From the NCBI GenBank assembly GCA_002189035.1, contig NEEC01000136.1:25330-89329 (forward strand): a stretch of 64,000 bases of DNA, written 5' to 3'. Position numbers and translations under genes: made by a program. Positions 23,220 through 64,000 of this stretch are shown here, piece by piece. Numbering within the stretch: position 1 is the first letter of the stretch; each line of letters begins with the position of its first letter. The notes below the pieces were generated by a model. That model searched no databases and was not told the DNA's origin. It worked only from the letters and a program-made list of their open reading frames with translations. This DNA is from Utricularia gibba (taxonomy: Eukaryota > Streptophyta > Magnoliopsida > Lamiales > Lentibulariaceae).

Positions 23220-23845
23220 GTGATGCATTTATTAACGTTGGGTTTTCGGCGGCTGCCTACATGCTTTTTCAAGGAAAAGTTGTCGTTTTTTGGCGGGTGC
23301 TGTTGTTGGGAACTTCGTCCGGACCCAAGGTTCGGTCTGACTTCACAGCACAATAAGGTCCCATTCGACGAAAATCGTGATACCTTTATTGAAGTTAGGA
23401 TCTCATGACCACCCCAAATGCTTTTTTCAACAGCATGCTATACACTTGAGAAGGCGCTTTTGTGGGTCACCGAGATCGGGCCGGAATTCGGGTCGAGCTC
23501 TGGCCCAAAGTCAGCTGTAGCCCGACAAAGAAGTGATGCATTTATTAACGTTGGTTGTCGGCGGCTGCCCACATGGTTTTTCAAGCAACAGCTTGCCGTT
23601 TTAAGGCGGGTGCTGTCGTTGGCAGCTTTGTAAGGGCCCAAGGTTTGGTCTGGCTCCTGAGCCCAATCGGGTCCTACTCGATGAAAATCGTGATGCATTT
23701 AATGAAGTTAGGATGTCATGAGCGCCCCAAATGGTTTTCTCAACAACCTGATTTTTATTCGACGAGGTGCTTTAAGCTGGCTCTAGTATCGAGCAAATGG
23801 TCGAGTCGCGCTCTGGCCCACAGTCATTTTGGCCCGGCCAAAAAA
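23220..23845 (+). repeat. First A-E dimer, with divergent E second half
   Basis: E starts at 23,533. From about 23,752 to 23,835 its second half has linked substitutions relative to the common E: TTTTTATTCGACG, GCTTTAAGCTGG, CTCTAGTATC, CCACAGTC and TTTTGGCCCGG. I call this variant E*. It is the only complete copy of E* I see; other copies carry subsets of these variants. Confidence 0.85.
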
Positions 23846-24470
23846 GTGATGCATTTATTAACGTTGGGTTTTCGGCGGCTGCCTACATGCTTTTTCAAGG
23901 AAAAGTTGTCGTTTTTTGGCGGGTGCTGTTGTTGGGAACTTCGTCCGGACCCAAGGTTCGGTCTGACTTCACAGCACAATAAGGTCCCATTCGACGAAAA
24001 TCGTGATACCTTTATTGAAGTTAGGATCTCATGACCACCCCAAATGCTTTTTTCAATAGCATGCTATACACTTGAGAAAGCGCTTTTCTGGGTCACCGAG
24101 ATCGGGCCAGAGGTCGGGTCGGGCTCTTGCCCATAGTCAGTTGTAGCCCGGAAAATAAGTCATGCATTTATCAATGTTGGGTTTCCGGCGGCTGCCTAAA
24201 TGGTTTTTCAAGCAATAGCTTGCCGTTCTAAGCGGGTGCTGTCGTTGGCAGCTTTGTAAGGGCCCAAGGTTTGGTCTGGCTCCTGAGCCCAATCGGTCCT
24301 ACTCGATGAAAATCGTGATGCATTTAATGAAGTTAGGATGTCATGAGCGCCCCAAATGGTTTTCTCAACAACCTGATTTATATTTGACGAGTGCTCTAGG
24401 CTGGCACTAGTATCGAACAAATGGTCGAGTCGCGCTCTGGCCCATAGTCATTTGTAGCCCGGCCAAAAAA
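23846..24470 (+). repeat. A/B recombinant plus divergent C at Region 2-3 boundary
   Basis: The A monomer runs normally until ATCGGGCC at about 24,101-24,108, then continues as the end of B (AGAGGTCGGGTCGGGCTC, GGAAAATAAGTC). The following C (24,159-24,470) has several substitutions not seen elsewhere: ATCAATGTTGG, TTTCCGGCGG, CAAGCAATAGC and CCGTTCTAAG. It also has the Region 1-style AAGTCATGC start. This unit differs by true substitutions, unlike most copies, which differ by deletions. Confidence 0.85.
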
Positions 24471-25095
24471 GTTATGCATTTATTAACGTTGGGTTTTCGG
24501 CGGCTGCCTACATGCTTTTTCAAGGAAAAGTTGTCGTTTTTTGGCGGTGCTGTTGTTGGGAACTTCGTCCGGACCCAAGGTTCGGTCTGACTTCACAGCA
24601 CAATAAGGTCCCATTCGACGAAAATCGTGATACCTTTATTGAAGTTAGGATCTCATGACCACCCCAAATGCTTTTTTCAACAGCATGCTATACACTTGAG
24701 AAGGCGCTTTTGTGGGTCACCGAGATCGGGCCGGAATTCGGGTCGAGCTCGGGCCCAAAGTCAGCTGTAGCCCGACAAAAGAAGTGATGCATTTATTAAC
24801 GTTGGTTGTCGGCGGCTGCCCACATGGTTTTTCAAGCAACAGCTTGCCGTTTTAAGGCGGGTGCTGTCGTTGGCAGCTTTGTAAGGGCCCAAGGTTTGGT
24901 CTGGCTCCTGAGCCCAATCGGGTCCTACTCGATGAAAATCGTGATGCATTTAATGAAGTTAGGATGTCATGAGCGCCCCAAATGGTTTTCTCAACAACCT
25001 GATTTATATTTGACGAGTGCTCTAGGCTGGCACTAGTATCGAACAAATGGTCGAGTCGCGCTCTGGCCCATAGTCATTTGTAGCCGGCCAAAAAA
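24471..25095 (+). repeat. A-E dimer
   Basis: 625 bp. A starts with GTTATGC instead of GTGATGC. E carries GACGAGTGC and ATCGAACAAATGG, variants shared with the C monomer just upstream (24,159), so these neighbours have exchanged sequence. Confidence 0.85.
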
Positions 25096-25951
25096 GTGAT
25101 GCATTTATTAACGTTGGGTTTTCGGCGGCTGCCTACATGCTTTTTCAAGGAAAAGTTGTCGTTTTTGGCGCGGTGCTGTTGTTGGGAACTTCGTCCGACC
25201 CAAGGTTCGGTCTGACTTCACAGCACAATAAGGTCCCATTCGACGAAAATCGTGATACCTTTATTGAAGTTAGGATCTCATGACCACCCCAAATGCTTTT
25301 TTCAACAGCATGCTATACACTTGAGAAGGCGCTTTTGTGGGTCACCGAGATCGGGCCGGATTCGGGTCGGCTCGGGCCCAAAGTCAGCTGTAGCCCGACA
25401 AAAGAAGTGATGCATTTATTAACGTTGGGTTGTCGGCGGCTGCCCACATGGTTTTTCAAGCAACAGCTTGCCGTTTTAAGGCGGGTGCTGTCGTTGGCAG
25501 CTTTGTAAGGCCCAAATGAGCCCAATCGGGTCCTACTCGATGAAAATCGTGATGCATTTGCATGTCATGATGGGCTACTTTATATTTGAGAAGGCGCTCT
25601 CGGGGGTCGGGTCGGGCTCACCCATAGTCAGTTGTAGCCCGGAAAAAAGTGATGCCAACGTTGGGTTTTCGGCGGCTGCCTAAATGGTTTTTCAAGCAAC
25701 AGCTTGCCGTTTTAAGGCGGGTGCTGTCGTTGGCAGCTTTGTAAGGGCCCAAGGTTTGGTCTGGCTCCTGAGCCAATCGGGTCCTACTCGATGAAAATCG
25801 TGATGCATTTAATGAAGTTAGGATGTCATGAGCGCCCCAAATGGTTTTCTCAACAACCTGATTTTATTGACGAGGTGCTTTAGCTGGCTCTAGTATCGAG
25901 CAAATGGTCGAGTCGCGCTCTGGCCCATAGTCATTGTAGCCCGGCAAAAAA
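25096..25951 (+). repeat. A-B-C unit, partially collapsed
   Basis: 856 bp. Monomer starts are A 25,096, B 25,407 and C 25,649. B retains only about 242 bp, and the losses lie between 25,508 and 25,660. The remaining pieces (GCCCAAATGAGCCC, GCATTTGCATGTCATG) can be derived from intact B by deletions alone. Confidence 0.83.
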
Positions 25952-26733
25952 GTGATGCATTTATTAACGTTGGGTTTTCGGCGGCTGCCTACATGCTTTT
26001 TTCAAGAAAAGTTGTCGTTTTTTGGCGGGTGCTGTTGTTGGGAACTTCGTCCGGACCCAAGGTTCGGTCTGACTTCACAGCACAATAAGGTCCCATTCGA
26101 CGAAAATCGTGATACCTTTATTGAAGTTAGGATCTCATGACCCCCCAAATGCTTTTTTCAACAGCATGCTATACACTTGAGAAGGCGCTTTTGTGGGTCA
26201 CCGAGATCGGGCCGGAATTCGGTCGAGCTCGGGCCCAAAGTCAGCTGTAGCCCGACAAAAGAAGTGATGCATTTATTAACGTTGGGTTGTCGGCGGCTGC
26301 CCACATGGTTTTTCAAGCAACAGCTTGCCGTTTTAAAGCTTTGTAAATAAATGAAAATCGTGATGCATAGGATGTCATTGGGTTGAGAAATTTCGGGTCG
26401 GGCTCACATAGTCAGTTGTAGCCCTGATGCATTTATAACGTTGGGTTTTCGGCGGCTGCCATGGTTTTTCAAGCAACAGCTTGCCGTTTTAAGGCGGTGC
26501 TGTCGTTGGCAGCTTTGTAAGGGCCCAAGGTTTGGTCTGGCTCCTGAGCCCAATCGGGTCCTACTCGATGAAAATCGTGATGCATTTAATGAAGTTAGGA
26601 TGTCATGAGCGCCCCAAATGGTTTTCTCAACAACCTGATTTATATTTGACGAGGTGCTCTAGGCTGGCACTAGTATCGAGCAAATGGTCGAGTCGCGCTC
26701 TGGCCCATAGTCATTTGTAGCCCGGCCAAAAAA
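25952..26733 (+). repeat. A-B-C unit, strongly collapsed
   Basis: 782 bp. The B monomer (26,264-26,424) keeps 161 bp. From 26,335 it reads as short ordered fragments of B (AAAGCTTTGTAA, ATGAAAATCGTGATGCATAG, TCATTGGGTTGAG) before C resumes at about 26,425. A is intact. Confidence 0.82.
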
Positions 26734-29700
26734 GTGATGCATTTATTAACGTTGGGTTTTCGGCGGCTGCCTACATGCTTTTTCAAGGAAAAGTTGTCGT
26801 TTTTTGGCGGGTGCTGTTGTTGGGAACTTCGTCCGGACCCAAGGTTCGGTCTGACTTCACAGCACAATAAGGTCCCATTCGACGAAAATCGTGATACCTT
26901 TATTGAAGTTAGGATCTCATGACCCCCAAATGCTTTTTTCAACAGCATGCTTTAAACTTGAGAAGGCGCTTTTGTGGGTCACCGAGATCGGGCCGGAATT
27001 CGGGTCGAGCTCGGGCCCAAAGTCAGCTGTAGCCCGACAAAAGAAGTGATGCATTTATTAACGTTGGGTTGTCGGCGGCTGCCCACATGGTTTTTCAAGC
27101 AACAGCTTGCCGTTTTAAGGCGGGTGCTGTCGTTGGCAGCTTTGTAAGGGCCCAAGGTTTGGTCTGGCTCCTGAGCCCAATCGGGTCCTACTCGATGAAA
27201 ATCGTGATGCATTTAATGAAGTTAGGATGTCATGAGCGCCCCAAATGGTTTTCTCAACAACCTGATTTTATTTGACGAGGTGCTCTAAGCTGGCTCTAGT
27301 ATCGAGCAAATGGTCGAGTCGCGCTCTGGCCCATAGTCATTGTAGCCCGGCCAAAAAAGTGATGCATTATTAACGTTGGGTTTTCGGCGGCTGCCTACAT
27401 GCTTTTTCAAGAAAAGTTGTCGTTTTTTGGCGGGTGCTGTTGTTGGGAACTTCGTCCGGACCCAAGGTTCGGTCTGACTTCACAGCACAATAAGGTCCCA
27501 TTCGACGAAAATCGTGATACCTTTATTGAAGTTAGGATCTCATGACCCCCAAATGCTTTTTTCAACAGCATGCTATACACTTGAGAAGGCGCTTTTGGGT
27601 CACCGAGATCGGGCCGGAATTCGGGTCGAGCTCGGGCCCAAAGTCAGCTGTAGCCCGACAAAAGAAGTGATGCATTTATTAACGTTGGGTTGTCGGCGGC
27701 TGCCCACATGGTTTTTCAAGCAACAGCTTGCCGTTTTAAGGCGGGTGCTGTCGTTGGCAGCTTTGTAAGGGCCCAAGTTTGGTCTGGCTCCTGAGCCCAA
27801 TCGGGTCCTACTCGATGAAAATCGTGATGCATTTAATGAAGTTAGGATGTCATGAGCGCCCCAAATGGTTTTCTCAACAACCTGATTTATATTTGACGAG
27901 GTGCTCTAGGCTGGCACTAGTATCGAGCAAATGGTCGAGTCGCGCTCTGGCCCATAGTCATTTGTAGCCCGGCCAAAAAAGTGATGCATTTATTAACGTT
28001 GGGTTTTCGGCGGCTGCCTACATGCTTTTTCAAGGAAAAGTTGTCGTTTTTTGGCGGGTGCTTGGGAACTTCGTCCGGACCCAAGGTTCGGTCTGACTTC
28101 ACAGCACAATAAGGTCCCATTCGACGAAAATCGTGATACCTTTATTGAAGTTAGGATCTCATGACCACCCCAAATGCTTTTTTCAACAGCATGCTATACA
28201 CTTGAGAAGGCGCTTTTGTGGGTCACCGAGATCGGGCCGGAATTCGGGTCGAGCTCGGGCCCAAAGTCAGCTGTAGCCCGACAAAAGAAGTGATGCATTT
28301 ATTAACGTTGGGTTGTCGGCGGCTGCCCACATGGTTTTTCAAGCAACAGCTTGCCGTTTTAAGGCGGGTGCTGTCGTTGGCAGCTTTGTAAGGGCCCAAG
28401 GTTTGGTCTGGCTCCTGAGCCCAATCGGGTCCTACTCGATGAAAATCGTGATGCATTTAATGAAGTTAGGATGTCATGAGCGCCCCAAATGGTTTTCTCA
28501 ACAACCTGATTTATATTTGACGAGGTGCTCTAAGCTGGCACTAGTATCGAGCAAATGGTCGAGTCGCGCTCTGGCCCATAGTCATTTGTAGCCCGGCCAA
28601 AAAAGTGATGCATTTATTAACGTTGGGTTTTCGGCGGCTGCCTACATGCTTTTTCAAGGAAAAGTTGTCGTTTTTGGCGGGTGCTGTTGTTGGGAACTTC
28701 GTCCGGACCCAAGGTTCGGTCTGACTTCACAGCACAATAAGGTCCCATTCGACGAAAATCGTGATACCTTTATTGAAGTTAGGATCTCATGACCACCCCA
28801 AATGCTTTTTTCAACAGCATGCTATACACTTGAGAAGGCGCTTTTGTGGGTCACCGAGATCGGCCGGAATTCGGGTCGGCTCGGGCCCAAAGTCAGCTGT
28901 AGCCCGACAAAAGAAGTGATGCATTTATTAACGTTGGGTTGTCGGCGGCTGCCCACATGGTTTTTCAAGCAACAGCTTGCCGTTTTAAGGCGGGTGCTGT
29001 CGTTGGCAGCTTTGTAAGGGCCCAAGGTTTGGTCTGGCTCCTGAGCCCAATCGGGTCCTACTCGATGAAAATCGTGATGCATTTAATGAAGTTAGGATGT
29101 CATGAGCGCCCCAAATGGTTTTCTCAACAACCTGATTTATATTTGACGAGGTGCTCTAGGCTGGCACTAGTATCGAGCAAATGGTCGAGTCGCGCTCTGG
29201 CCCATAGTCATTTGTAGCCCGGCCAAAAAAGTGATGCATTTATTAACGTTGGGTTTTCGGCGGCTGCCTACATGCTTTTTCAAGGAAAAGTTGTCGTTTT
29301 TTGGCGGGTGCTGTTGTTGGGAACTTCGTCCGGACCCAAGGTTCGGTCTGACTTCACAGCACAATAAGGTCCCATTCGACGAAAATCGTGATACCTTTAT
29401 TGAAGTTAGGATCTCATGACCACCCCAAATGCTTTTTTCAACAGCATGCTTTAAACTTGAGAAGGCGCTTTTGTGGGTCACCGAGATCGGGCCGGAATTC
29501 GGGTCGAGCTCGGGCCCAAAGTCAGCTGTAGCCCGACAAAAGAAGTGATGCATTTATTAACGTTGGGTTGTCGGCGGCTGCCCACATGGTTTTTCAAGCA
29601 ACAGCTTGCCGTTTTAAGGCGGGTGCTGTCGTTGGCAGCTTTGTAAGGGCCCAAGGTTTGGTCTGGCTCCTGAGCCAATCGGGTCCTACTCGATGAAAAT

Positions 29701-29858
29701 CGTGATGCATTTAATGAAGTTAGGATGTCATGAGCGCCCCAAATGGTTTTCTCAACAACCTGATTTATATTTGACGAGGTGCTCTAGGCTGGCACTAGTA
29801 TCGAGCAAATGGTCGAGTCGCGCTCTGGCCCATAGTCATTTGTAGCCCGGCCAAAAAA
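26734..29858 (+). repeat. Run of five A-E dimers
   Basis: A starts at 26,734, 27,359, 27,981, 28,605 and 29,231, with spacings of 622-628 bp. Differences are mostly 1-3 bp deletions, for example GACCCCCAAATGC at about 26,921 and 27,543. The E at about 27,263-27,300 mixes common-E and E* variants. Confidence 0.9.
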
Positions 29859-30598
29859 GTGATGCATTTATTAACGTTGGGTTTTCGGCGGCTGCCTACA
29901 TGCTTTTTCAAGGAAAAGTTGTCGTTTTTTGGCGGGTGCTGTTGTTGGGAACTTCGTCCGGACCCAAGGTTCGGTCTGACTTCACAGCACAATAAGGTCC
30001 CATTCGACGAAAATCGTGATACCTTTATTGAAGTTAGGATCTCATGACCACCCCAAATGCTTTTTTCAACAGCATGCTTTAAACTTGAGAAGGCGCTTTT
30101 GTGGGTCACCCGAGATCGGGCCGGAATTCGGGTCGGGCGAAAGTCAGCTGTAGCCCGTCAAAAGAAGTGATGCATTTATTAACGTTGGGTTGTCGGCGGC
30201 TGCCCACATGGTTTTTCAAGCAACATTAAAGCTTTGTAACAAATTCGGGGATGAAAATCGTGATGGTTAGGATGTCATAATGGGTTGAGAACCCAAAGTC
30301 AGTTGTCTGCATTTATAAGCTGCCATGGTTTTTCAAGCAACAGCTTGCCGTTTTAAGGCGGGTGCTGTCGTTGGCAGCTTTGTAAGGGCCCAAGGTTTGG
30401 TCTGGCTCCTGAGCCCAATCGGGTCCTACTCGATGAAAATCGTGATGCATTTAATGAAGTTAGGATGTCATGAGCGCCCCAAATGGTTTTCTCAACAACC
30501 TGATTTATATTTGACGAGGTGCTCTAGGCTGGCACTAGTATCGAGCAAATGGTCGAGTCGCGCTCTGGCCCATAGTCATTTGTAGCCCGGCCAAAAAA
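29859..30598 (+). repeat. A-B-C unit, strongly collapsed
   Basis: 740 bp. B starts at 30,167. Between about 30,223 and 30,325 only short ordered fragments of B and of the C first half survive (CAACATTAAAGCTTTG, GATGAAAATCGTGATGG, TCATAATGGGTTGAG, GCATTTATAAGCTGCC). C resumes fully at GCCATGG. Confidence 0.82.
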
Positions 30599-33500: not shown

Positions 33501-34333
33501 AGGTTTGGTCTGGCTCCTGAGCCAATCGGGTCCTACTCGATGAAAATCGTGATGCATTTAATGAAGTTAGGATGTCATGAGCGCCCCAAATGGTTTTCTC
33601 AACAACCTGATTTATATTTGACGAGGTGCTCTAGGCTGGCACTAGTATCGAGCAAATGGTCGAGTCGCGCTCTGGCCCATAGTCATTTGTAGCCCGGCCA
33701 AAAAAGTGATGCATTTATTAACGTTGGGTTTTCGGCGGCTGCCTACATGCTTTTTCAAGGAAAAGTTGTCGTTTTTTGGCGGGTGCTGTTGTTGGGAACT
33801 TCGTCCGGACCCAAGGTTCGGTCTGACTTCACAGCACAATAAGGTCCCATTCGACGAAAATCGTGATACCTTTATTGAAGTTAGGATCTCATGACCACCC
33901 CAAATGCTTTTTTCAACAGCATGCTTTAAACTTGAGAAGGCGCTTTTGTGGGTCACCGAGATCGGGCCGGAATTCGGGTCGAGCTCGGGCCCAAAGTCAG
34001 CTGTAGCCCGACAAAAGAAGTGATGCATTTATTAACGTTGGTTGTCGGCGGCTGCCCACATGGTTTTTCAAGCAACAGCTTGCCGTTTTAAGGCGGGTGC
34101 TGTCGTTGGCAGCTTTGTAAGGGCCCAAGGTTTGGTCTGGCTCCTGAGCCCAATCGGGTCCTACTCGATGAAAATCGTGATGCATTTAATGAAGTTAGGA
34201 TGTCATGAGCGCCCCAAATGGTTTTCTCAACAACCTGATTTATATTTGACGAGGTGCTCTAGGCTGGCACTAGTATCGAGCAAATGGTCGAGTCGCGCTC
34301 TGGCCCATAGTCATTTGTAGCCCGGCCAAAAAA
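30599..34333 (+). repeat. Run of six A-E dimers
   Basis: A starts at 30,599, 31,216, 31,836, 32,461, 33,087 and 33,706. The copies at 31,216 and 33,087 show CCTCGGGTCGGGCTCGG and CCCGAAAAG, forms that look like merged subtypes. The A first half near 33,127 lacks CAAGG (CTTTTTAAAAG). Confidence 0.9.
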
Positions 34334-35238
34334 GTGATGCATTTATTAACGTTGGGTTTTCGGCGGCTGCCTACATGCTTTTTGAAGAAAAGTTGTCGTT
34401 TTTTGGCGGGTGCTGTTGTTGGAACTTCGTCCGGACCCAAGGTTCGGTCTGACTTCACAGCACAATAAGGTCCATTCGACGAAAATCGTGATACCTTTAT
34501 TGAAGTTAGGATCTCATGACCGCCCCAAATGCTTTTTTCAACAGCATGCTTTAAACTTGAGAAGGCGCTTTTGTGGGTCACCGAGATCGGGCCGGAATTC
34601 GGTCGGGCTGGGCCAAAGTCAGCTGTAGCCCGTCAAAAGAAGTGATGCATTTATTAACGTTGGTGTCGGCGGCTGCCCACATGGTTTTTCAAGCAACAGT
34701 TGCCGTTTTAAGGCGGGTGCTGTCGTTGGCAGCTTTGTAAGGGCCAAGGTTCGGTCTGGCTCCTGAGCCCAATCGGGTCCTACTCGATGAAAATCGTGAT
34801 GCATTTGCTTTTGTTAGGATGTCATGAGAACCCCAATGGGTTTTCTCCACACTCTACTTTATATTGAGAAGGCGCTCATTGGGCTCGGGTCGGGCTCCCC
34901 ATAGTCAGTTGTAGCCCGGAAAATAAGTGATGCATTTATCAACGTTGGGTTTTCGGCGGCTGCCTAAATGGTTTTTCAAGCAACAGCTTGCCGTTTAAGG
35001 CGGTGCTGTCGTTGGCAGCTTTGTAAGGGCCCAAGGTTTGGTCTGGCTCCTGAGCCCAATCGGTCCTACTCGATGAAAATCGTGATGCATTTAATGAAGT
35101 TAGGATGTCATGAGCGCCCCAAATGGTTTTCTCAACAACCTGATTTATATTTGACGAGGTGCTCTAGGCTGGCACTAGTATCGAGCAAATGGTCGAGTCG
35201 CGCTCTGGCCCATAGTCATTTGTAGCCCGGCCAAAAAA
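34334..35238 (+). repeat. Best-preserved A-B-C unit in Region 3, Region 1-like
   Basis: 905 bp. A 34,334, B 34,642, C 34,927. A has CTTTTTGAAGAAAAG, close to the Region 1 form GAAGC and unlike the surrounding CAAGG. It also has GACCGCCCC as in Region 1 A. B has CGGTCTGG, not the Region 2 CGGTCAGG. Confidence 0.85.
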
Positions 35239-37105: not shown

Positions 37106-37979
37106 GTGATGCATTTATTAACGTTGGGTTTTCGGCGGCTGCCTACATGCTTTTTCAAGGAAAAGTTGTCGTTTTTTGGCGGGTGCTGTTGTTGGGAACT
37201 TCGTCCGGACCAAGGTTCGGTCTGACTTCACAGCACAATAAGGTCCCATTCGACGAAAATCGTGATACCTTTATTGAAGTTAGGATCTCATGACCACCCC
37301 AAATGCTTTTTTCAACAGCATGCTTTAAACTTGAGAAGGCGCTTTTGTGGGTCACCGAGATCGGGCCGGAATTCGGGTCGGGCTTGGGGGACAAAGTCAG
37401 CTGTAGCCCGAAAAGAAGTGATGCATTTATTAACGTTGGGTTGTCGGCGGCTGCCCACATGGTTTTTCAAGCAACAGCTTGCCGTTTTAAGGCGGGTGCT
37501 GTCGTTGGCAGCTTTGTAAGGGCCCAAGGTTCGGTCTGGCTCCTGAGCCCAATCGGGTCCTACTCGATGAAAATCGTGATGCATTTAGGATGTCATGAGA
37601 TGGGTTTTGAGAAGGCGCTCTATTTCGGGTCGGGCTCCCCATAGTCAGTTGTAGCCCGGAAAATAAGTGATGCATTTATCAACGTTGGGTTTCGGCGGCT
37701 GCCTAAATGGTTTTTCAAGCAACAGCTTGCCGTTTTAAGGCGGGTGCTGTCGTTGGCAGCTTTGTAAGGGCCCAAGGTTTGGTCTGGCTCCTGAGCCCAA
37801 TCGGTCCTACTCGATGAAAATCGTGATGCATTTAATGAAGTTAGGATGTCATGAGCGCCCCAAATGTTTTTCTCAACAACCTGATTTATATTTGACGAGG
37901 TGCTCTAGGCTGGCACTAGTATCGAGCAAATGGTCGAGTCGCGCTCTGGCCCATAGTCATTTGTAGCCCGGCCAAAAAA
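37106..37979 (+). repeat. A-B-C unit, partially collapsed
   Basis: 874 bp. B 37,418-37,666 keeps about 249 bp and has lost most of its second half between 37,587 and 37,640 (GCATTTAGGATGTCATGAG, GGGTTTTGAGAAGG). A is of the B-preceding subtype (CTTGGGGGACAAAG) and B has CGGTCTGG. Confidence 0.84.
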
Positions 37980-39848
37980 GTGATGCATTTATTAACGTTG
38001 GGTTTTCGGCGGCTGCCTACATGCTTTTTCAAGGAAAAGTTGTCGTTTTTTGGCGGTGCTGTTGTTGGGAACTTCGTCCGGACCCAAGGTTCGGTCTGAC
38101 TTCACAGCACAATAAGGTCCCATTCGACGAAAATCGTGATACCTTTATTGAAGTTAGGATCTCATGACCACCCCAAATGCTTTTTTCAACAGCATGCTAT
38201 ACACTTGAGAAGGCGCTTTTGTGGGTCACCGAGATCGGGCCGGAATTCGGGTCGAGCTCGGGCCCAAAGTCAGCTGTAGCCCGACAAAAGAAGTGATGCA
38301 TTTATTAACGTTGGGTTGTCGGCGGCTGCCCACATGGTTTTTCAAGCAACAGCTTGCCGTTTTAAGGCGGGTGCTGTCGTTGGCAGCTTTGTAAGGGCCC
38401 AAGGTTTGGTCTGGCTCCTGAGCCCAATCGGGTCCTACTCGATGAAAATCGTGATGCATTTAATGAAGTTAGGATGTCATGAGCGCCCCAAATGGTTTTC
38501 TCAACAACCTGATTTATATTTGACGAGGTGCTCTAGGCTGGCACTAGTATCGAGCAAATGGTCGAGTCGCGCTCTGGCCCATAGTCATTTTAGCCCGGCC
38601 AAAAAAGTGATGCATTTATTAACGTTGGGTTTTCGGCGGCTGCCTACATGCTTTTTCAAGGAAAAGTTGTCGTTTTTTGGCGGGTGCTGTTGTTGGGAAC
38701 TTCGTCCGGACCCAAGGTTCGGTCTGACTTCACAGCACAATAAGGTCCCATTCGACGAAAATCGTGATACCTTTATTGAAGTTAGGATCTCATGACCACC
38801 CAAATGCTTTTTTCAACAGCATGCTAACTTGAGAAGGCGCTTTTGTGGGTCACCGAGATCGGGCCGGAATTCGGGTCGGCTCGGGCCAAAGTCAGCTGTA
38901 GCCCGAAAAAAGTGATGCATTTATTAACGTTGGTTGTCGGCGGCTGCCCAATGGTTTTTCAAGCAACAGCTTGCCGTTTTAAGGCGGGTGCTGTCGTTGG
39001 CAGCTTTGTAAGGGCCCAAGGTTTGGTCTGGCTCCTGAGCCCAATCGGGTCCTACTCGATGAAAATCGTGATGCATTTAATGAAGTTAGGATGTCATGAG
39101 CGCCCCAAATGGTTTTCTCAACAACCTGATTTATATTTGACGAGGTGCTCTAGGCTGGCACTAGTATCGAGCAAATGGTCGAGTCGCGCTCTGGCCCATA
39201 GTCATTTGTAGCCCGGCCAAAAAAGTGATGCATTTATTAACGTTGGGTTTTCGGCGGCTGCCTACATGCTTTTTCAAGGAAAAGTTGTCGTTTTTTGGCG
39301 GGTGCTGTTGTTGGGAACTTCGTCCGGACCCAAGGTTCGGTCTGACTTCACAGCACAATAAGGTCCCATTCGACGAAAATCGTGATACCTTTATTGAAGT
39401 TAGGATCTCATGACCACCCCAAATGCTTTTTTCAACAGCATGCTATACACTTGAGAAGGCGCTTTTGTGGGTCACCGAGATCGGGCCGGAATTCGGGTCG
39501 GCTCGGGCCCAAAGTCAGCTGTAGCCCGACAAAAGAAGTGATGCATTTATTAACGTTGGTTGTCGGCGGCTGCCCACATGGTTTTTCAAGCAACAGCTTG
39601 CCGTTTTAAGGCGGGTGCTGTCGTTGGCAGCTTTGTAAGGGCCCAAGGTTTGGTCTGGCTCCTGAGCCCAATCGGGTCCTACTCGATGAAAATCGTGATG
39701 CATTTAATGAAGTTAGGATGTCATGAGCGCCCCAAATGGTTTTCTCAACAACCTGATTTATATTTGACGAGGTGCTCTAGCTGGCACTAGTATCGAGCAA
39801 ATGGTCGAGTCGCGCTCTGGCCCATAGTCATTTGGCCCGGCCAAAAAA
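37980..39848 (+). repeat. Run of three A-E dimers
   Basis: A starts at 37,980, 38,607 and 39,225. The 38,607 copy has merged-subtype deletions (AGCATGCTAACTTGAG, GGTCGGCTCGGGCC, CCCGAAAAAAG, CGTTGGTTGTCGG). Confidence 0.88.
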
Positions 39849-40489
39849 GTGATGCATTTATTAACGTTGGGTTTTCGGCGGCTGCCTACATGCTTTTTCA
39901 AGGAAAAGTTGTCGTTTTTTGGCGGGTGCTGTTGTTGGGAACTTCGTCCGGACCCAAGGTTCGGTCTGACTTCACAGCACAATAAGGTCCCATTCGACGA
40001 AAATCGTGATACCTTTATTGAAGTTAGGATCTCATGACCACCCCAAATGCTTTTTTCAACAGCATGCTTACACTTGAGAAGGCGCTTTTGTGGGTCACCG
40101 AGATCGGGCCGGAATTCGGGTCGGCTTGGGGACAAAGTCAGCTGTAGCCCGTCAAAAGAAGTGATGCATTTATTAACGTTGGGTTGTCGGCGGCTGCCCA
40201 CATGGTTTTTCAAGCAACAGCTTGCCGTTTTAAGGCGGGTGCTGTCGTTGGCAGCTTTGTAAGGAAGCCAATCGGGTCCTACTCGATGAAAATCGTGATG
40301 CATTTCCATGAGTTTGGTCTCCTCGATAGTCCCCCCAAACAAGGAAAAATTAGGAGCATCATGAGCGCCCCAAATGGTTTTCTCAACAACCTGATTTATA
40401 TTTGACGAGGTGCTCTAGGCTGGCACTAGTATCGAGCAAATGGTCGAGTCGCGCTCTGGCCCATAGTCATTTGTAGCCCGGCCAAAAAA
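39849..40489 (+). repeat. A-B1 joined to C2 with non-satellite sequence at the join
   Basis: 641 bp. A is of the B-preceding subtype (CTTGGGGACAAAG, CCCGTC). The B first half loses about 27 bp after TTTGTAAGG at 40,264. After GATGCATTT (40,297-40,305) comes about 44 bp of unfamiliar sequence, then TTAGGAGCATCATGAGCGCC resumes the C/E second half. The B second half and C first half are absent. Confidence 0.8.
40306..40349. other. Short non-satellite insertion
   Basis: About 44 bp that I cannot match to any monomer half as a whole. It contains a CCCCCCAAAC tract and AAGGAAAAA. A small part (TTTGGTCT then CCT then CGAT) could be a contracted copy of the first-half GGTTTGGTCTGG...CTCGAT region. 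There is no obvious target-site duplication. It sits exactly where the B second half and C first half have been lost. It may be filler DNA from break repair or a consensus error. Confidence 0.55.
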
Positions 40490-43400
40490 GTGATGCATTT
40501 ATTAACGTTGGGTTTTCGGCGGCTGCCTACATGCTTTTTCAAGGAAAAGTTGTCGTTTTTTGGCGGGTGCTGTTGTTGGGAACTTCGTCCGGACCCAAGG
40601 TTCGGTCTGACTTCACAGCACAATAAGGTCCATTCGACGAAAATCGTGATACCTTTATTGAAGTTAGGATCTCATGACCACCCCAAATGCTTTTTTCAAC
40701 AGCATGCTATACACTTGAGAAGGCGCTTTTGTGGGTCACCGAGATCGGGCCGGAATTCGGGTCGAGCTCGGGCCAAAGTCAGCTGTAGCCCGACAAAAGA
40801 AGTGATGCATTTATTAACGTTGGTTGTCGGCGGCTGCCCACATGGTTTTTCAAGCAACAGCTTGCCGTTTTAAGGCGGGTGCTGTCGTTGGCAGCTTTGT
40901 AAGGGCCCAAGGTTTGGTCTGGCTCCTGAGCCCAATCGGGTCCTACTCGATGAAAATCGTGATGCATTTAATGAAGTTAGGATGTCATGAGCGCCCCAAA
41001 TGGTTTTCTCAACAACCTGATTTATATTGACGAGGTGCTCTAGGCTGGCACTAGTATCGAGCAATGGTCGAGTCGCGCTCTGGCCCATAGTCATTTGTAG
41101 CCCGGCCAAAAAAGTGATGCATTTATTAACGTTGGGTTTTCGGCGGCTGCCTACATGCTTTTTCAAGGAAAAGTTGTCGTTTTTTGGCGGGTGCTGTTGT
41201 TGGGAACTTCGTCCGGACCCAAGGTTCGGTCTGACTTCACAGCACAATAAGGTCCCATTCGACGAAAATCGTGATACCTTTATTGAAGTTAGGATCTCAT
41301 GACCACCCCAAATGCTTTTTTCAACAGCATGCTTTAAACTTGAGAAGGCGCTTTTGTGGGTCACCGATCGGGCCGGAATTCGGGTCGAGCTCGGGCCAAA
41401 GTCAGCTGTAGCCCGACAAAAGAAGTGATGCATTTATTAACGTTGGGTTGTCGGCGGCTGCCCACATGGTTTTTCAAGCAACAGCTTGCCGTTTTAAGGC
41501 GGGTGCTGTCGTTGGCAGCTTTGTAAGGGCCCAAGGTTTGGTCTGGCTCCTGAGCCCAATCGGGTCCTACTCGATGAAAATCGTGATGCATTTAATGAAG
41601 TTAGGATGTCATGAGCGCCCCAAATGGTTTTCTCAACAACCTGATTTATATTTGACGAGGTGCTCTAGGCTGGCACTAGTATCGAGCAAATGGTCGAGTC
41701 GCGCTCTGGCCCATAGTCATTTGTAGCCCGGCCAAAAAAGTGATGCATTTATTAACGTTGGGTTTTCGGCGGCTGCCTACATGCTTTTTCAAGGAAAAGT
41801 TGTCGTTTTTTGGCGGGTGCTGTTGTTGGGAACTTCGTCCGGACCCAAGGTTCGGTCTGACTTCACAGCACAATAAGGTCCCATTCGACGAAAATCGTGA
41901 TACCTTTATTGAAGTTAGGATCTCATGACCACCCCAAATGCTTTTTTCAACAGCATGCTATACACTTGAGAAGGCGCTTTTGTGGGTCACCGAGATCGGG
42001 CCGGAATTCGGGTCGGCTCGGGCCAAAGTCAGCTGTAGCCCGAAAAGAAGTGATGCATTTATTAACGTTGGGTTGTCGGCGGCTGCCCACATGGTTTTTC
42101 AAGCAACAGCTTGCCGTTTTAAGGCGGGTGCTGTCGTTGGCAGCTTTGTAAGGGCCCAAGGTTTGGTCTGGCTCCTGAGCCCAATCGGGTCCTACTCGAT
42201 GAAAATCGTGATGCATTTAATGAAGTTAGGATGTCATGAGCGCCCCAAATGGTTTTCTCAACAACCTGATTTATATTGACGAGGTGCTCTAGGCTGGCAC
42301 TAGTATCGAGCAAATGGTCGAGTCGCGCTCTGGCCCATAGTCATTTGTAGCCCGGCCAAAAAAGTGATGCATTTATTAACGTTGGGTTTTCGGCGGCTGC
42401 CTACATGCTTTTTCAAGGAAAAGTTGTCGTTTTTTGGCGGGTGCTGTTGTTGGGAACTTCGTCCGGACCCAAGGGTTCGGTCTGACTTCACAGCACAATA
42501 AGGTCCCATTCGACGAAAATCGTGATACCTTTATTGAAGTTAGGATCTCATGACCACCCCAAATGCTTTTTTCAACAGCATGCTATACACTTGAGAAGGC
42601 GCTTTTGTGGGTCACCGATCGGGCCGGAATTCGGGTCGAGCTCGGGCCCAAAGTCAGCTGTAGCCCGACAAAAGAAGTGATGCATTTATTAACGTTGGGT
42701 TGTCGGCGGCTGCCCACATGGTTTTTCAAGCAACAGCTTGCCGTTTTAAGGCGGGTGCTGTCGTTGGCAGCTTTGTAAGGGCCCAAGGTTTGGTCTGGCT
42801 CCTGAGCCCAATCGGGTCCTACTCGATGAAAATCGTGATGCATTTAATGAAGTTAGGATGTCATGAGCGCCCCAAATGGTTTTCTCAACAACCTGATTTA
42901 TATTTGACGAGGTGCTCTAGGCTGGCACTAGTATCGAGCAAATGGTCGAGTCGCGCTCTGGCCCATAGTCATTTGTAGCCCGGCCAAAAAAGTGATGCAT
43001 TTATTAACGTTGGGTTTTCGGCGGCTGCCTACATGCTTTTTCAAGGAAAAGTTGTCGTTTTTTGGCGGGTGCTGTTGTTGGGAACTTCGTCCGGACCCAA
43101 GGTTCGGTCTGACTTCACAGCACAATAAGGTCCCATTCGACGAAAATCGTGATACCTTTATTGAAGTTAGGATCTCATGACCACCCAAAATGCTTTTTTC
43201 AACAGCATGCTATACACTTGAGAAGGCGCTTTTGTGGGTCACCGATCGGGCCGGAATTCGGGTCGAGCTCGGGCCCAAAGTCAGCTGTAGCCCGACAAAA
43301 GAAGTGATGCATTTATTAACGTTGGGTTGTCGGCGGCTGCCCACATGGTTTTTCAAGCAACAGCTTGCCGTTTTAAGGCGGGTGCTGTCGTTGGCAGCTT

Positions 43401-45486: not shown

Positions 45487-46358
45487 GTGATGCATTTATT
45501 AACGTTGGGTTTTCGGCGGCTGCCTACATGCTTTTTCAAGGAAAAGTTGTCGTTTTTTGGCGGGTGCTGTTGTTGGGAACTTCGTCCGGACCCAAGGTTC
45601 GGTCTGACTTCACAGCACAATAAGGTCCCATTCGACGAAAATCGTGATACCTTTATTGAAGTTAGGATCTCATGACCACCCCAAATGCTTTTTTCAACAG
45701 CATGCTATACACTTGAGAAGGCGCTTTTGTGGGTCACCGAGATCGGGCCGGAATTCGGGTCGAGCTCGGGCCCAAAGTCAGCTGTAGCCCGACAAAGAAG
45801 TGATGCATTTATTAACGTTGGGTTGTCGGCGGCTGCCCACATGGTTTTTCAAGCAACAGCTTGCCGTTTTAAGGCGGGTGCTGTCGTTGGCAGCTTTGTA
45901 AGGGCCCAGGTTCGGTCTGGAGCCCAATCGGGTCCTCGATGAAAATCGTGATGCATTTGGTTAGGATGTCATGAGCCCAATGGTTTTCTCACAACTTTAT
46001 ATTTGAGAAGGCGCCAAGAGCTCGCCCATAGTCAGTAGGGAAAATAAGTGATGCATTTATAACGTTGGGTTTTCGGCGGCTGCCTAAATGGTTTTCAAGC
46101 AACAGCTTGCCGTTTTAAGGCGGTGCTGTCGTTGGCAGCTTTGTAAGGGCCCAAGGTTTGGTCTGGCTCCTGAGCCCAATCGGGTCCTACTCGATGAAAA
46201 TCGTGATGCATTTAATGAAGTTAGGATGTCATGAGCGCCCCAAATGGTTTTCTCAACAACCTGATTTTTATTGACGAGGTGCTTTAGGCTGGCACTAGTA
46301 TCGAGCAAATGGTCGAGTCGCGCTCTGGCCCATAGTCATTTGTAGCCCGGCCAAAAAA
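45487..46358 (+). repeat. A-B-C unit, partially collapsed
   Basis: 872 bp. B 45,800-46,047 keeps about 248 bp, with losses spread over 45,907-46,045 (CAGGTTCGGTCTGGAGCCC, CACAACTTTATATTTG, GGCGCCAAGAGCTCGCCC). C starts at 46,048 with TTTATAACG in place of TTTATCAACG. Confidence 0.83.
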
Positions 46359-47878: not shown

Positions 47879-47901
47879 GAATTCGGGTCGAGCTCGGGCC
47901 C
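47879..47901 (+). other. Cluster of three 6-bp palindromes in the A second half
   Basis: GAATTC, GAGCTC and GGGCCC lie within 23 bp near the end of A2. GAATTC is retained in nearly all A monomers and absent from B, C, D and E. An EcoRI digest should therefore release the higher-order repeat periods (about 628 and 940 bp) instead of the monomer. Confidence 0.7.
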
Positions 47902-48606: not shown

Positions 48607-48620
48607 CAAGCAACAGCTTG
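48607..48620 (+). other. Perfect short dyad, 5-bp stem, in first halves of B, C, D and E
   Basis: CAAGC-AACA-GCTTG can fold into a 5-bp hairpin with a 4-base loop. It is present in almost every B, C, D and E first half. The equivalent A first half (GAAGCAAAAGTTG or CAAGGAAAAGTTG) has lost it. Its role is unknown. Confidence 0.6.
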
Positions 48621-48703
48621 CCGTTTTAAGGCGGGTGCTGTCGTTGGCAGCTTTGTAAGGGCCCAAGGTTTGGTCTGGCTCCTGAGCCCAATCGGGTCCT
48701 ACT

Positions 48704-48723
48704 CGATGAAAATCGTGATGCAT
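48704..48723 (+). other. Dyad CGAT-GAAA-ATCG plus ATGCAT palindrome at the half-unit junction
   Basis: A 4-bp stem around GAAA ends at the boundary between halves and is followed within 3 bp by ATGCAT. The ATGCAT palindrome recurs at the start of most half-units except A2, where it is GATACC. In A1 the stem is imperfect (CGAC-GAAA-ATCG). This is a description of sequence symmetry only. Confidence 0.55.
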
Positions 48724-57006: not shown

Positions 57007-57622
57007 GTGATGCATTTATTAACGTTGGGTTTTCGGCGGCTGCCTACATGCTTTTTCAAGGAAAAGTTGTCGTTTTTTGGCGGTGCTGTTGTTGGGAACG
57101 TCCGGACCCAAGGTTCGGTCTGACTTCACAGCACAATAAGGTCCCATTCGACGAAAATCGTGATACCTTTATTGAAGTTAGGATCTCATGACCACCCCAA
57201 ATGCTTTTTTCAACAGCATGCTTTAAACTTGAGAAGGCGCTTTTGTGGGTCACCGATCGGGCCGGAATTCGGGTCGGGCTCGGGAAAAGTCAGCTGTAGC
57301 CCGTCAAAAGAAGTGATGCATTTATTAACGTTGGGTTGTCGGCGGCTGCCCACATGGTTTTTCAAGCAACAGCTTGCCGTTTTAAGGCGGGTGCTGTCGT
57401 TGGCAGCTTTGTAAGGGCCCAAGGTTCGGTCTGAGCCCAATCGGGTCCTACTCGATGAAAATCGTGATGCATTTAGGATGAAGTTAGGATGTCATGAGCG
57501 CCCCAAATGGTTTTCTCAACAACCTGATTTATATTTGACGAGGTGCTCTAGGCTGGCACTAGTATCGAGCAAATGGTCGAGTCGCGCTCTGGCCCATAGT
57601 CATTTGTAGCCCGGCCAAAAAA
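57007..57622 (+). repeat. A followed by a B1/C2 chimera, module lost
   Basis: 616 bp. A is of the B-preceding subtype (TTTAAACTTGAG, CCCGTC). The monomer from 57,313 is a B first half (GGTTCGGTCTG, then a short loss). At 57,467-57,490 GCATTTAGGATG runs into AAGTTAGGATGTCATGAGCG, so B sequence joins the C/E second half with a GTTAGG/TTAGG overlap. It is an independent loss of the B2-C1 module, with a breakpoint different from E. Confidence 0.82.
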
Positions 57623-60600
57623 GTGATGCATTTATTAACGTTGGGTTTTCGGCGGCTGCCTACATGCTTTTTCAAGGAAAAGTTGTCGTTTTTTGGCGGG
57701 TGCTGTTGTTGGGAACTTCGTCCGGACCCAAGGTTCGGTCTGACTTCACAGCACAATAAGGTCCCATTCGACGAAAATCGTGATACCTTTATTGAAGTTA
57801 GGATCTCATGACCACCCCAAATGCTTTTTTCAACAGCATGCTATACACTTGAGAAGGCGCTTTTGTGGGTCACCGAGATCGGGCCGGAATTCGGGTCGGC
57901 TCGGGCCCAAAGTCAGCTGTAGCCCGACAAAAGAAGTGATGCATTTATTAACGTTGGGTTGTCGGCGGCTGCCCACATGGTTTTTCAAGCAACAGCTTGC
58001 CGTTTTAAGGCGGGTGCTGTCGTTGGCAGCTTTGTAAGGGCCCAAGGTTTGGTCTGGCTCCTGAGCCCAATCGGGTCCTACTCGATGAAAATCGTGATGC
58101 ATTTAATGAAGTTAGGATGTCATGAGCGCCCCAAATGGTTTTCTCAACAACCTGATTTATATTTGACGAGGTGCTCTAGGCTGGCACTAGTATCGAGCAA
58201 ATGGTCGAGTCGCGCTCTGGCCCATAGTCATTTGTAGCCCGGCCAAAAAAGTGATGCATTTATTAACGTTGGGTTTTCGGCGGCTGCCTACATGCTTTTT
58301 CAAGGAAAAGTTGTCGTTTTTTGGCGGTGCTGTTGTTGGGAACTTCGTCCGGACCCAAGGTTCGGTCTGACTTCACAGCACAATAAGGTCCCATTCGACG
58401 AAAATCGTGATACCTTTATTGAAGTTAGGATCTCATGACCACCCCAAATGCTTTTTTCAACAGCATGCTATACACTTGAGAAGGCGCTTTTGTGGGTCAC
58501 CGAGATCGGGCCGGAATTCGGGTCGGCTCGGGCCCAAAGTCAGCTGTAGCCCGACAAAAGAAGTGATGCATTTATTAACGTTGGGTTGTCGGCGGCTGCC
58601 CACATGGTTTTTCAAGCAACAGCTTGCCGTTTTAAGGCGGGTGCTGTCGTTGGCAGCTTTGTAAGGGCCCAAGGTTTGGTCTGGCTCCTGAGCCCAATCG
58701 GGTCCTACTCGATGAAAATCGTGATGCATTTAATGAAGTTAGGATGTCATGAGCGCCCCAAATGGTTTTCTCAACAACCTGATTTATATTTGACGAGGTG
58801 CTCTAGGCTGGCACTAGTATCGAGCAAATGGTCGAGTCGCGCTCTGGCCCATAGTCATTTGTAGCCCGGCCAAAAAAGTGATGCATTTATTAACGTTGGG
58901 TTTTCGGCGGCTGCCTACATGCTTTTTCAAGGAAAAGTTGTCGTTTTTTGGCGGGTGCTGTTGTTGGGAACTTCGTCCGGACCCAAGGTTCGGTCTGACT
59001 TCACAGCACAATAAGGTCCCATTCGACGAAAATCGTGATACCTTTATTGAAGTTAGGATCTCATGACCACCCCAAATGCTTTTTTCAACAGCATGCTATA
59101 CACTTGAGAAGGCGCTTTTGTGGTCACCGAGATCGGGCCGGAATTCGGGTCGAGCTCGGGCCCAAAGTCAGCTGTAGCCCGACAAAAGAAGTGATGCATT
59201 TATTAACGTTGGGTTGTCGGCGGCTGCCCACATGGTTTTTCAAGCAACAGCTTGCCGTTTTAAGGCGGGTGCTGTCGTTGGCAGCTTTGTAAGGGCCCAA
59301 GGTTTGGTCTGGCTCCTGAGCCCAATCGGGTCCTACTCGATGAAAATCGTGATGCATTTAATGAAGTTAGGATGTCATGAGCGCCCCAAATGGTTTTCTC
59401 AACAACCTGATTTATATTTGACGAGGTGCTCTAGGCTGGCACTAGTATCGAGCAAATGGTCGAGTCGCGCTCTGGCCCATAGTCATTTGTAGCCCGGCCA
59501 AAAAAGTGATGCATTTATTAACGTTGGGTTTTCGGCGGCTGCCTACATGCTTTTTCAAGGAAAAGTTGTCGTTTTTTGGCGGGTGCTGTTGTTGGGAACT
59601 TCGTCCGGACCCAAGGTTCGGTCTGACTTCACAGCACAATAAGGTCCCATTCGACGAAAATCGTGATACCTTTATTGAAGTTAGGATCTCATGACCACCC
59701 CAAATGCTTTTTTCAACAGCATGCTATACACTTGAGAAGGCGCTTTTGTGGGTCACCGAGATCGGGCCGGAATTCGGGTCGGCTCGGGCCAAAGTCAGCT
59801 GTAGCCCGACAAAAGAAGTGATGCATTTATTAACGTTGGTTGTCGGCGGCTGCCCACATGGTTTTTCAAGCAACAGCTTGCCGTTTTAAGGCGGGTGCTG
59901 TCGTTGGCAGCTTTGTAAGGGCCCAAGGTTTGGTCTGGCTCCTGAGCCCAATCGGGTCCTACTCGATGAAAATCGTGATGCATTTAATGAAGTTAGGATG
60001 TCATGAGCGCCCCAAATGGTTTTCTCAACAACCTGATTTATATTTGACGAGGTGCTCTAGGCTGGCACTAGTATCGAGCAAATGGTCGAGTCGCGCTCTG
60101 GCCCATAGTCATTTTAGCCCGGCCAAAAAAGTGATGCATTTATTAACGTTGGGTTTTCGGCGGCTGCCTACATGCTTTTTCAAGGAAAAGTTGTCGTTTT
60201 TTGGCGGGTGCTGTTGTTGGGAACTTCGTCCGGACCCAAGGTTCGGTCTGACTTCACAGCACAATAAGGTCCCATTCGACGAAAATCGTGATACCTTTAT
60301 TGAAGTTAGGATCTCATGACCACCCCAAATGCTTTTTTCAACAGCATGCTATACACTTGAGAAGGCGCTTTTGTGGGTCACCGAGATCGGGCCGGAATTC
60401 GGGTCGGCTCGGGCCAAAGTCAGCTGTAGCCCGTAAAAGAAGTGATGCATTTATTAACGTTGGGTTGTCGGCGGCTGCCCACATGGTTTTTCAAGCAACA
60501 GCTTGCCGTTTTAAGGCGGGTGCTGTCGTTGGCAGCTTTGTAAGGGCCCAAGGTTTGGTCTGGCTCCTGAGCCCAATCGGGTCCTACTCGATGAAAATCG

Positions 60601-61380
60601 TGATGCATTTAATGAAGTTAGGATGTCATGAGCGCCCCAAATGGTTTTCTCAACAACCTGATTTATATTTGACGAGGTGCTCTAGGCTGGCACTAGTATC
60701 GAGCAAATGGTCGAGTCGCGCTCTGGCCCATAGTCATTTGTAGCCCGGCCAAAAAAGTGATGCATTTATTAACGTTGGGTTTTCGGCGGCTGCCTACATG
60801 CTTTTTCAAGGAAAAGTTGTCGTTTTTTGGCGGGTGCTGTTGTTGGGAACTTCGTCCGGACCCAAGGTTCGGTCTGACTTCACAGCACAATAAGGTCCCA
60901 TTCGACGAAAATCGTGATACCTTTATTGAAGTTAGGATCTCATGACCACCCCAAATGCTTTTTCAACAGCATGCTATACACTTGAGAAGGCGCTTTTGTG
61001 GGTCACCGAGATCGGGCCGGAATTCGGGTCGGCTCGGGCCCAAAGTCAGCTGTAGCCCAAAAGAAGTGATGCATTTATTAACGTTGGGTTGTCGGCGGCT
61101 GCCCACATGGTTTTTCAAGCAACAGCTTGCCGTTTTAAGGCGGGTGCTGTCGTTGGCAGCTTTGTAAGGGCCCAAGGTTTGGTCTGGCTCCTGAGCCCAA
61201 TCGGGTCCTACTCGATGAAAATCGTGATGCATTTAATGAAGTTAGGATGTCATGAGCGCCCCAAATGGTTTTCTCAACAACCTGATTTATATTTGACGAG
61301 GTGCTCTAGGCTGGCACTAGTATCGAGCAAATGGTCGAGTCGCGCTCTGGCCCATAGTCATTTGTAGCCCGGCCAAAAAA
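57623..61380 (+). repeat. Run of six A-E dimers
   Basis: A starts at 57,623, 58,251, 58,878, 59,506, 60,131 and 60,757. Several A2 halves have GGTCGGCTCGGGCC(C), a shortened form intermediate between the two A subtypes. Confidence 0.9.
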
Positions 61381-62141
61381 GTGATGCATTTATTAACGTT
61401 GGGTTTTCGGCGGCTGCCTACATGCTTTTTCAAGGAAAAGTTGTCGTTTTTTGGCGGGTGCTGTTGTTGGGAACTTCGTCCGGACCCAAGGTTCGGTCTG
61501 ACTTCACAGCACAATAAGGTCCCATTCGACGAAAATCGTGATACCTTTATTGAAGTTAGGATCTCATGACCACCCCAAATGCTTTTTTCAACAGCATGCT
61601 TTAAACTTGAGAAGGCGCTTTTGTGGGTCACCGAGATCGGGCCGGAATTCGGGTCGAGCTTGGGGACAAAGTCAGCTGTAGCCCGTCAAAAGAAGTGATG
61701 CATTTATTAACGTTGGTTGTCGGCGGCTGCCCACATGGTTTTTCAAGCAACAGCTTGCCGTTTTAAGGCGGGTGCTGTCGTTGGCAGCTTTGTAAGGCCC
61801 AAGGTTCGGTCTGGCTCCTGAGCCCAATCGGTCCTACTCGATGAAAATCGTGATGCATTTGCCATTTTGGAGAACCGATAGTCAGTTGTAGCCCGCATTT
61901 GTTAAATGGTTTTTTGCCGTTTTAAAGCTTTGTAAGGGCCCAAGGTTTGGTCTGGCTCCTGAGCCAATCGGGTCCTACTCGATGAAAATCGTGATGCATT
62001 TAATGAAGTTAGGATGTCATGAGCGCCCCAAATGGTTTTCTCAACAACCTGATTTTATTGACGAGGTGCTGCTGGCACTAGTATCGAGCAAATGGTCGAG
62101 TCGCGCTCTGGCCCATAGTCATTTGTAGCCCGGCCAAAAAA
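61381..62141 (+). repeat. A-B-C unit, strongly collapsed
   Basis: 761 bp. B starts at 61,695 with CGGTCTGG. From about 61,860 to 61,930 only fragments of the B second half and C first half remain (GCCATTTTGGAGAACCGATAG, then GTTAAATGGTTTTTTGCCG), before C resumes at AAAGCTTTGTAAGGG. Confidence 0.82.
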
Positions 62142-62969
62142 GTGATGCATTTATTAACGTTGGGTTTTCGGCGGCTGCCTACATGCTTTTTCAAGGAAAA
62201 GTTGTCGTTTTTTGGCGGGTGCTGTTGTTGGGAACTTCGTCCGGACCCAAGGTTCGGTCTGACTTCACAGCACAATAAGGTCCCATTCGACGAAAATCGT
62301 GATACCTTTATTGAAGTTAGGATCTCATGACCACCCCAAATGCTTTTTTCAACAGCATGCTATACACTTGAGAAGGCGCTTTTGTGGGTCACCGAGATCG
62401 GGCCGGAATTCGGGTCGAGCTCGGGCCCAAAGTCAGCTGTAGCCCGACAAAAGAAGTGATGCATTTATTAACGTTGGGTTGTCGGCGGCTGCCCACATGG
62501 TTTTTCAAGCAACAGCTTGCCGTTTTAAGGCGGGTGCTGTCGTTGGCAGCTTTGTAAGGGCCCAAAGCCAATCGGGTCCCGAAAAATCGTGATGCATTTG
62601 GTTAGGATGTCATGAGCCCCAATGGTTTTGAGAAGGACTCAATAGTCAGGTAGCCCGGGTGATGCATTTATTAACGTTGGGTTTTCGGCGGCTGCCTAAA
62701 TGGTTTTCAAGCAACAGCTTGCCGTTTTAAGGCGGTGCTGTCGTTGGCAGCTTTGTAAGGGCCAAGGTTTGGTCTGGCTCCTGAGCCCAATCGGTCCTAC
62801 TCGATGAAAATCGTGATGCATTTAATGAAGTTAGGATGTCATGAGCGCCCCAAATGGTTTTCTCAACAACCTGATTTATATTTGACGAGGTGCTCTAGGC
62901 TGGCACTAGTATCGAGCAAATGGTCGAGTCGCGCTCTGGCCCATAGTCATTTGTAGCCCGGCCAAAAAA
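62142..62969 (+). repeat. A-B-C unit, strongly collapsed
   Basis: 828 bp. B 62,457-62,658 keeps about 202 bp, with the losses between 62,563 and 62,660 (CCCAAAGCCAATCGGG, CCCCAATGGTTTTGAG). C from 62,659 starts TTTATTAACG, so the C marker base is also lost. Confidence 0.82.
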
Positions 62970-63596
62970 GTGATGCATTTATTAACGTTGGGTTTTCGGC
63001 GGCTGCCTACATGCTTTTTCAAGGAAAAGTTGTCGTTTTTTGGCGGGTGCTGTTGTTGGGAACTTCGTCCGGACCCAAGGTTCGGTCTGACTTCACAGCA
63101 CAATAAGGTCCCATTCGACGAAAATCGTGATACCTTTATTGAAGTTAGGATCTCATGACCACCCCAAATGCTTTTTTCAACAGCATGCTTTAAACTTGAG
63201 AAGGCGCTTTTGTGGGTCACCGAGATCGGGCCGGAATTCGGGTCGAGCTCGGGCCCAAAGTCAGCTGTAGCCCGACAAAAGAAGTGATGCATTTATTAAC
63301 GTTGGGTTGTCGGCGGCTGCCCACATGGTTTTTCAAGCAACAGCTTGCCGTTTTAAGGCGGGTGCTGTCGTTGGCAGCTTTGTAAGGGCCCAAGGTTTGG
63401 TCTGGCTCCTGAGCCCAATCGGGTCCTACTCGATGAAAATCGTGATGCATTTAATGAAGTTAGGATGTCATGAGCGCCCCAAATGGTTTTCTCAACAACC
63501 TGATTTTATTCGACGAGGTGCTTTAGGCTGGCTCTAGTATCGAGCAAATGGTCGAGTCGCGCTCTGGCCCATAGTCATTGTAGCCCGGCCAAAAAA
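62970..63596 (+). repeat. A-E dimer with E*-like second half
   Basis: 627 bp. E at about 63,504-63,540 has TTTTATTCGACG, GCTTTAGGCTGG and CTCTAG, the nearest match in the window to the E* variant at 23,752. Confidence 0.87.
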
Positions 63597-64000
63597 GTGA
63601 TGCATTTATTAACGTTGGGTTTTCGGCGGCTGCCTACATGCTTTTTCAAGGAAAAGTTGTCGTTTTTTGGCGGGTGCTGTTGTTGGGAACTTCGTCCGGA
63701 CCCAAGGTTCGGTCTGACTTCACAGCACAATAAGGTCCCATTCGACGAAAATCGTGATACCTTTATTGAAGTTAGGATCTCATGACCACCCAAATGCTTT
63801 TTTCAACAGCATGCTATACACTTGAGAAGGCGCTTTTGTGGGTCACCGAGATCGGGCCGGAATTCGGGTCGAGCTCGGGCCCAAAGTCAGCTGTAGCCCG
63901 ACAAAAGAAGTGATGCATTTATTAACGTTGGGTTGTCGGCGGCTGCCCACATGGTTTTTCAAGCAACAGCTTGCCGTTTTAAGGCGGGTGCTGTCGTTGG
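63597..64000 (+). repeat. Partial unit at window edge: A plus start of E
   Basis: A complete A of the dimer-associated subtype, followed by a B/E-type first half that is cut by the window end at GTCGTTGG, before the base that would separate B from E. The array continues to the right. Confidence 0.88.

Follow-up and report, generated by a model that had tools for sequence, protein, structure and literature searches.

Organization of the satellite array

The stretch of Utricularia gibba DNA analysed here (the window) makes up the final 64,000 of the 89,329 bases of contig C456, and template and string decomposition showed it to consist entirely of satellite DNA with units of ~157 bp. Six unit types of 156–158 bases each (P, Q, R, S, T and V) account for essentially the whole window in the template decomposition, and these are organized into higher-order repeat (HOR) blocks of four units (PQRS), six units (PQRTVS) or ten units (PQRS + PQRTVS). 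Specifically, string decomposition places three arrays on the forward strand: one of mainly 10-unit blocks with a period of ~1.56 kb at positions 1–11,649 (limits approximate), one of mainly 6-unit blocks with a period of ~0.94 kb at 11,650–23,219, and one of mainly 4-unit blocks with a period of ~0.63 kb at 23,220–64,000. The last of these, which was also characterized by its deletion statistics, is referred to as region III. The 25 kb of C456 upstream of the window consist mostly of 4-unit blocks. The units have diverged from one another and the blocks they form are repeated at high identity, as is typical of HOR satellites; contig C437, for example, differs from the unit templates by 0.3 substitutions per kb. 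An intact copy of the S* subtype (E* in an earlier note on this DNA; GATTTTTATTCGACG / TGCTTTAAGCTGGCTCTA) lies on the forward strand at 23,690–23,845, and provided the second parent in the intersection test.

Block size falls stepwise along the contig, from ten units to six to four, with T-V pairs lost between 11,650–23,219 and 23,220–64,000. This shortening may represent real evolution of the array; alternatively, the boundaries could be assembly joins.

The large HOR satellite is found in small contigs, namely C456 (window positions 1–64,000), C452, C133, C437, C174, C99, C92 and C113. With up to three mismatches allowed, the assembly has 1,019 occurrences of a 33-base segment of Q, and its carrier contigs, among those whose size was seen, are small. 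A paper on U. gibba cites the absence of satellite repeats from its putative centromeres (PMC8333044), and the satellite described here may be a missing centromeric or heterochromatic satellite. The same assembly contains an intact plant rbcL, and the first exon of its cox1 encodes CC at the helix-3 site and continues into an intron frame with LAGLIDADG-like sequence. A Cys-113-Cys-114 motif has been reported in every Utricularia examined, and U. gibba and U. reniformis are reported to have a cox1 intron with a LAGLIDADG ORF (PMC9590445, PMC5516982); the reported genome size of U. gibba is about 101 Mb (PMC5516982).

Deletions at columns that distinguish subtypes

Small deletions are scattered through the array, and the earlier note had claimed for region III that they fall at the columns where unit subtypes differ (discordant columns). 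For our main test, these columns were defined solely from substitution variants outside 23,220–64,000, and one-base runs were taken separately, which excludes homopolymer slippage. At one-base runs in region III, 44/1040 discordant site-copies were deleted (4.2%) versus 19/17598 concordant ones (0.11%), a 39-fold enrichment (p=7e-41). Under a second definition, in which discordance was drawn from all intact subtypes including the S* copy at 23,690, the counts were 50/1230 (4.07%) and 13/17408 (0.07%), or ~54-fold (p=1.7e-47). When runs of every length are considered, 94 of the 201 single-base deletions in region III lie within the 33 of 431 homopolymer runs that hold a discordant column, compared with a mean of 25.8 and a maximum of 73 in 20,000 label permutations. 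With the intact-subtype definition, 105/190 single-base deletions (55%) fall in 8.1% of runs.

Enrichment at discordant columns is likewise present in the upstream 25 kb of C456 and in three other contigs (C437, C452 and C133). The tabulation of indel positions against subtype-discriminating columns that the earlier note had called for is therefore strongly positive and replicated, and the pattern is real in region III but extends well beyond it. Strings quoted in that note were recovered within 0–3 bases of its positions, except that the third CCCGAAAAG lies at 42,039 rather than 42,049; deletion strings in the array also include CGTTGGTTGTC, GATTTTATTGACG and GGTCGGCTCGGGCC.

Deletions outnumber insertions by 616 to 106 in region III, 222 to 2 in region II and 74 to 3 in C437, and between 11,650 and 23,219 there are 19.2 deleted versus 0.17 inserted bases per kb. 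Deletion rates elsewhere on C456 are comparable to those of region III. Positions 1–20000 of C437 hold a much cleaner PQRS array, with 3.7 deletions per kb, where 15/20 single-base deletions lie at discordant columns.

Discordance accounts for about half of the deletions rather than for all of them. The other ~45% of single-base deletions in region III are at concordant columns, mostly as homopolymer losses in runs of at least two bases, and concordant 3-base runs lose one base in 2.3–2.9% of cases. This fraction looks like the product of a second process, either homopolymer or ordinary long-read consensus error, or of unseen discordance.

Within single units, damage is usually partial. Random deletions would not bring damaged Q and S units as near to the second subtype as they are, yet most of these units are partial rather than complete intersections of two subtypes, and a complete pairwise intersection in every damaged unit was not found. 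In one Q unit of 148 bases (38,764–38,911, forward strand), all five of the five tested discordant sites are deleted (CTAAC, GGTCGGCTCGGGCCAA, CCCGAAA), but co-deletion of discordant sites inside one Q unit exceeds the level expected under independence only weakly (p=0.08). Certain deletion alleles are found in identical form in several units, such as GGTCGGCTCGGGCCC in six, which would also be expected of a real variant that had spread.

Dependence on locally segregating variants

We compared columns that are variable in region III, mainly through S/S* differences, and not variable in the 10-unit arrays. Such columns were deleted in 30/492 cases (6.1%) in region III versus 3/519 (0.58%) in the 10-unit arrays (p=3e-7), and at columns variable in neither array the deletion rates were equal (0.35% and 0.40%, respectively). 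Bases are thus lost at a column where its variants segregate locally, which argues against mutability of the columns as a simple explanation. For the opposite set of columns, which vary in the 10-unit arrays and not in region III, there was no clean separation (3.9% deleted in region III, 5.7% in the 10-unit arrays); this would follow if the piles of region III also took in reads of the 10-unit arrays. At P column 50 in the 10-unit arrays, part of the deletions stems from misalignment of subtype P′, and these deletions carried no weight in the analysis; region III has no single-base deletion scored at this column.

Junctions between R-S and R-T-V-S arrangements

A second form of damage is seen in nine segments of 172–440 bases in which the R-S and R-T-V-S arrangements compete, and for which a length of either 158 or 472 bases is expected. 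All are on the forward strand. The segment at 25,407–25,799 is a degraded R-T-V junction that retains 393/472 bases with 10 scattered gaps and contains all of R, and that at 26,264–26,576 has 313 bases and 15 gaps, with 313/313 bases embedded in R-T-V and 158/158 bases of R inside it. Further degraded junctions lie at 30,167–30,441 (275 bases, 17 gaps), 37,418–37,822 (405 bases, 8 gaps), 45,800–46,202 (403 bases, 18 gaps), 61,695–61,990 (296 bases, 17 gaps) and 62,456–62,812 (357 bases, 17 gaps), together with a mildly degraded one at 34,642–35,081 (440 bases, 10 gaps). The most collapsed, at 40,161–40,332, has 172 bases and fits R-S-P as well, so that its parentage is ambiguous.

All nine junctions align to R-T-V with no inserted bases, at most one mismatch and 8–18 separate gaps. 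Of the 158 R bases, 157 or more are present in eight of the nine, and every one of the nine fits inside R-T-V with no more than a single base unaccounted for. The junctions are therefore sandwiched between the short (R) and long (R-T-V) forms, with the ninth (40,161) being the ambiguous case. A biological deletion or crossover has a single breakpoint and leaves one clean gap, and the 8–18 gaps accordingly argue against real deletion. Moreover, the surviving T bases are biased toward those common to S (p=0.0002) or Q (p=0.0006), and no such bias was found toward those common to P or R.

Simulation of mixed read piles

Noisy reads with 9% insertion, 4% deletion and 1.5% substitution were simulated from two parents and combined by indel-only alignment and majority vote, a generic voter that stands in for the actual assembler. 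Unmixed piles gave full-length units of 157 bases with neither signature. Mixed piles gave units of 151–158 bases with the observed forms TTATTgac, TTTAGCTGGCT and GGGCTCTGGGG, the last being an instance in which both alleles are occasionally kept. A simulated pile of R-S and R-T-V-S reads likewise produced intermediates that fit inside the long form and contain the short form almost completely. Mixing under this generic voter is thus sufficient to generate both signatures.

Two variants of the procedure fared less well. When the junctions were modelled as a register-for-register merger of R-T-V and R-S-P, the products stayed near full length (559–592/592), unlike the observed segments; anchored merging of R-T-V with R-S gave intermediate lengths. 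With a plurality consensus that allows mismatches, units tended to come out longer instead of shorter, and the fit was worse.

Origin of the deletions

Taken together, these observations strongly support, short of proof, the reading of the deletions as a consensus artefact of merged repeats in an unresolved satellite. We consider it very probable that they are absent from the DNA of the plant. The earlier note's proposal that a consensus of mixed reads drops the discordant base is supported by the enrichment, the local-variation control, the junctions and the simulation alike. The second parent often comes from elsewhere in the array. Specifically, the partner allele GTTGGCTTG has 0 copies in region III and 6 upstream within the window, and GGTCGGGCTTGGGG(G)AC has 1 and 7 copies, respectively; this absence or rarity of some partner alleles points to another parent located outside region III.

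In the mechanism that we propose, the array is a real HOR satellite, only fragments of which are present in the assembly, and reads from different HOR copies (Q, R and S subtypes; R-S and R-T-V-S arrangements) would have been piled together. The consensus step would then have scored each mismatch as an insertion together with a deletion and retained only those bases that a majority supported, such that neither base would survive at a discordant column, and a 2-unit insertion carried by roughly half of the reads would be eroded into fragments. Later polishing would have left this damage unrepaired, presumably because satellite reads cannot be uniquely placed. HGAP pre-assembly would behave in this way, and Quiver would leave repeats of low mapping quality unpolished. 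For U. gibba, an HGAP assembly of PacBio reads at 88x has been published (PMC5793159), and the assembly used here (100.09 Mb, 516 contigs; published number 581) is probably that one. For falcon_sense, Canu's account describes Myers' O(ND) alignment followed by a DAG path. We infer both the responsible pipeline step and the skipping of the array by polishing. In a separate observation, a stretch of ~700 bases that lies upstream of the window (C456 ~11.0–11.7 kb; L010:1000-1720) contains many insertions, and P-like fragments alternate there with S, Q and R units; it looks either like sequence of raw-read quality or like the merging artefact in its opposite (union) form.

Other origins can be weighed against the same data. 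Ordinary homopolymer error in an unpolished long-read consensus, with no merging of subtypes, would draw on the commonest error class of long-read contigs, namely short indels (PMC8081667), and it agrees with the losses at concordant 3-base runs in region III; it is likely the cause of part of the concordant ~45%. Nonetheless, such error cannot act at one-base runs, where the enrichment is strongest, and it leaves the scattered erosion of T-V unexplained. The one-base-run statistics refute the view that homopolymer slippage or error alone produced the deletions, and we regard an account without merging as very improbable. Even less credence attaches to real deletion alleles that arose at intrinsically mutable columns and spread by unequal crossing-over and gene conversion. 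The identity of certain deletion alleles in many units is in keeping with such spread, but the same columns are spared where variants do not segregate, a control on which we reject this account, and real R-S / R-T-V-S junctions should show one clean gap.

Real excision of mismatched bases from heteroduplexes of recombining subtypes, which would reduce the array to the common subsequence of its variants, also predicts deletions at discordant columns that depend on local variants. However, this process would have to fragment 2-unit insertions while sparing the shorter arrangement, and a mixed-pile consensus predicts the same erosion without new biology. We know of no process that excises mismatched bases from a heteroduplex between repeat subtypes, and would place this possibility, at best, level with that of mutable columns. 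On the merged-read account, the damage signature is not new biology.

Implications and comparison with known systems

As the deletions are probably artefactual, they should be discounted as biology; unit variants, HOR phylogenies, mutation spectra and copy-number histories taken from this contig would mislead. Deletions at discordant columns, in combination with sandwiched junctions, offer a read-free test for merged repeats in any draft satellite contig.

The damage resembles the collapsed-repeat errors of noisy long-read assemblies in which pre-assembly or read correction uses indel alignment and a DAG or vote consensus, in that short indels dominate, one pile takes in several copies or haplotypes, and repeats escape polishing. 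It differs from the usual errors of this kind in its explicit intersection signature: with intact parents of both classes at hand in the sequence, the damage can be followed one base at a time. The array itself shares with the HOR satellites of plants and animals (alpha-satellite-like) the arrangement of diverged tandem units in larger, near-identical repeating blocks, and is distinguished from them by its six unit types of ~157 bp in nested 4-, 6- and 10-unit blocks.
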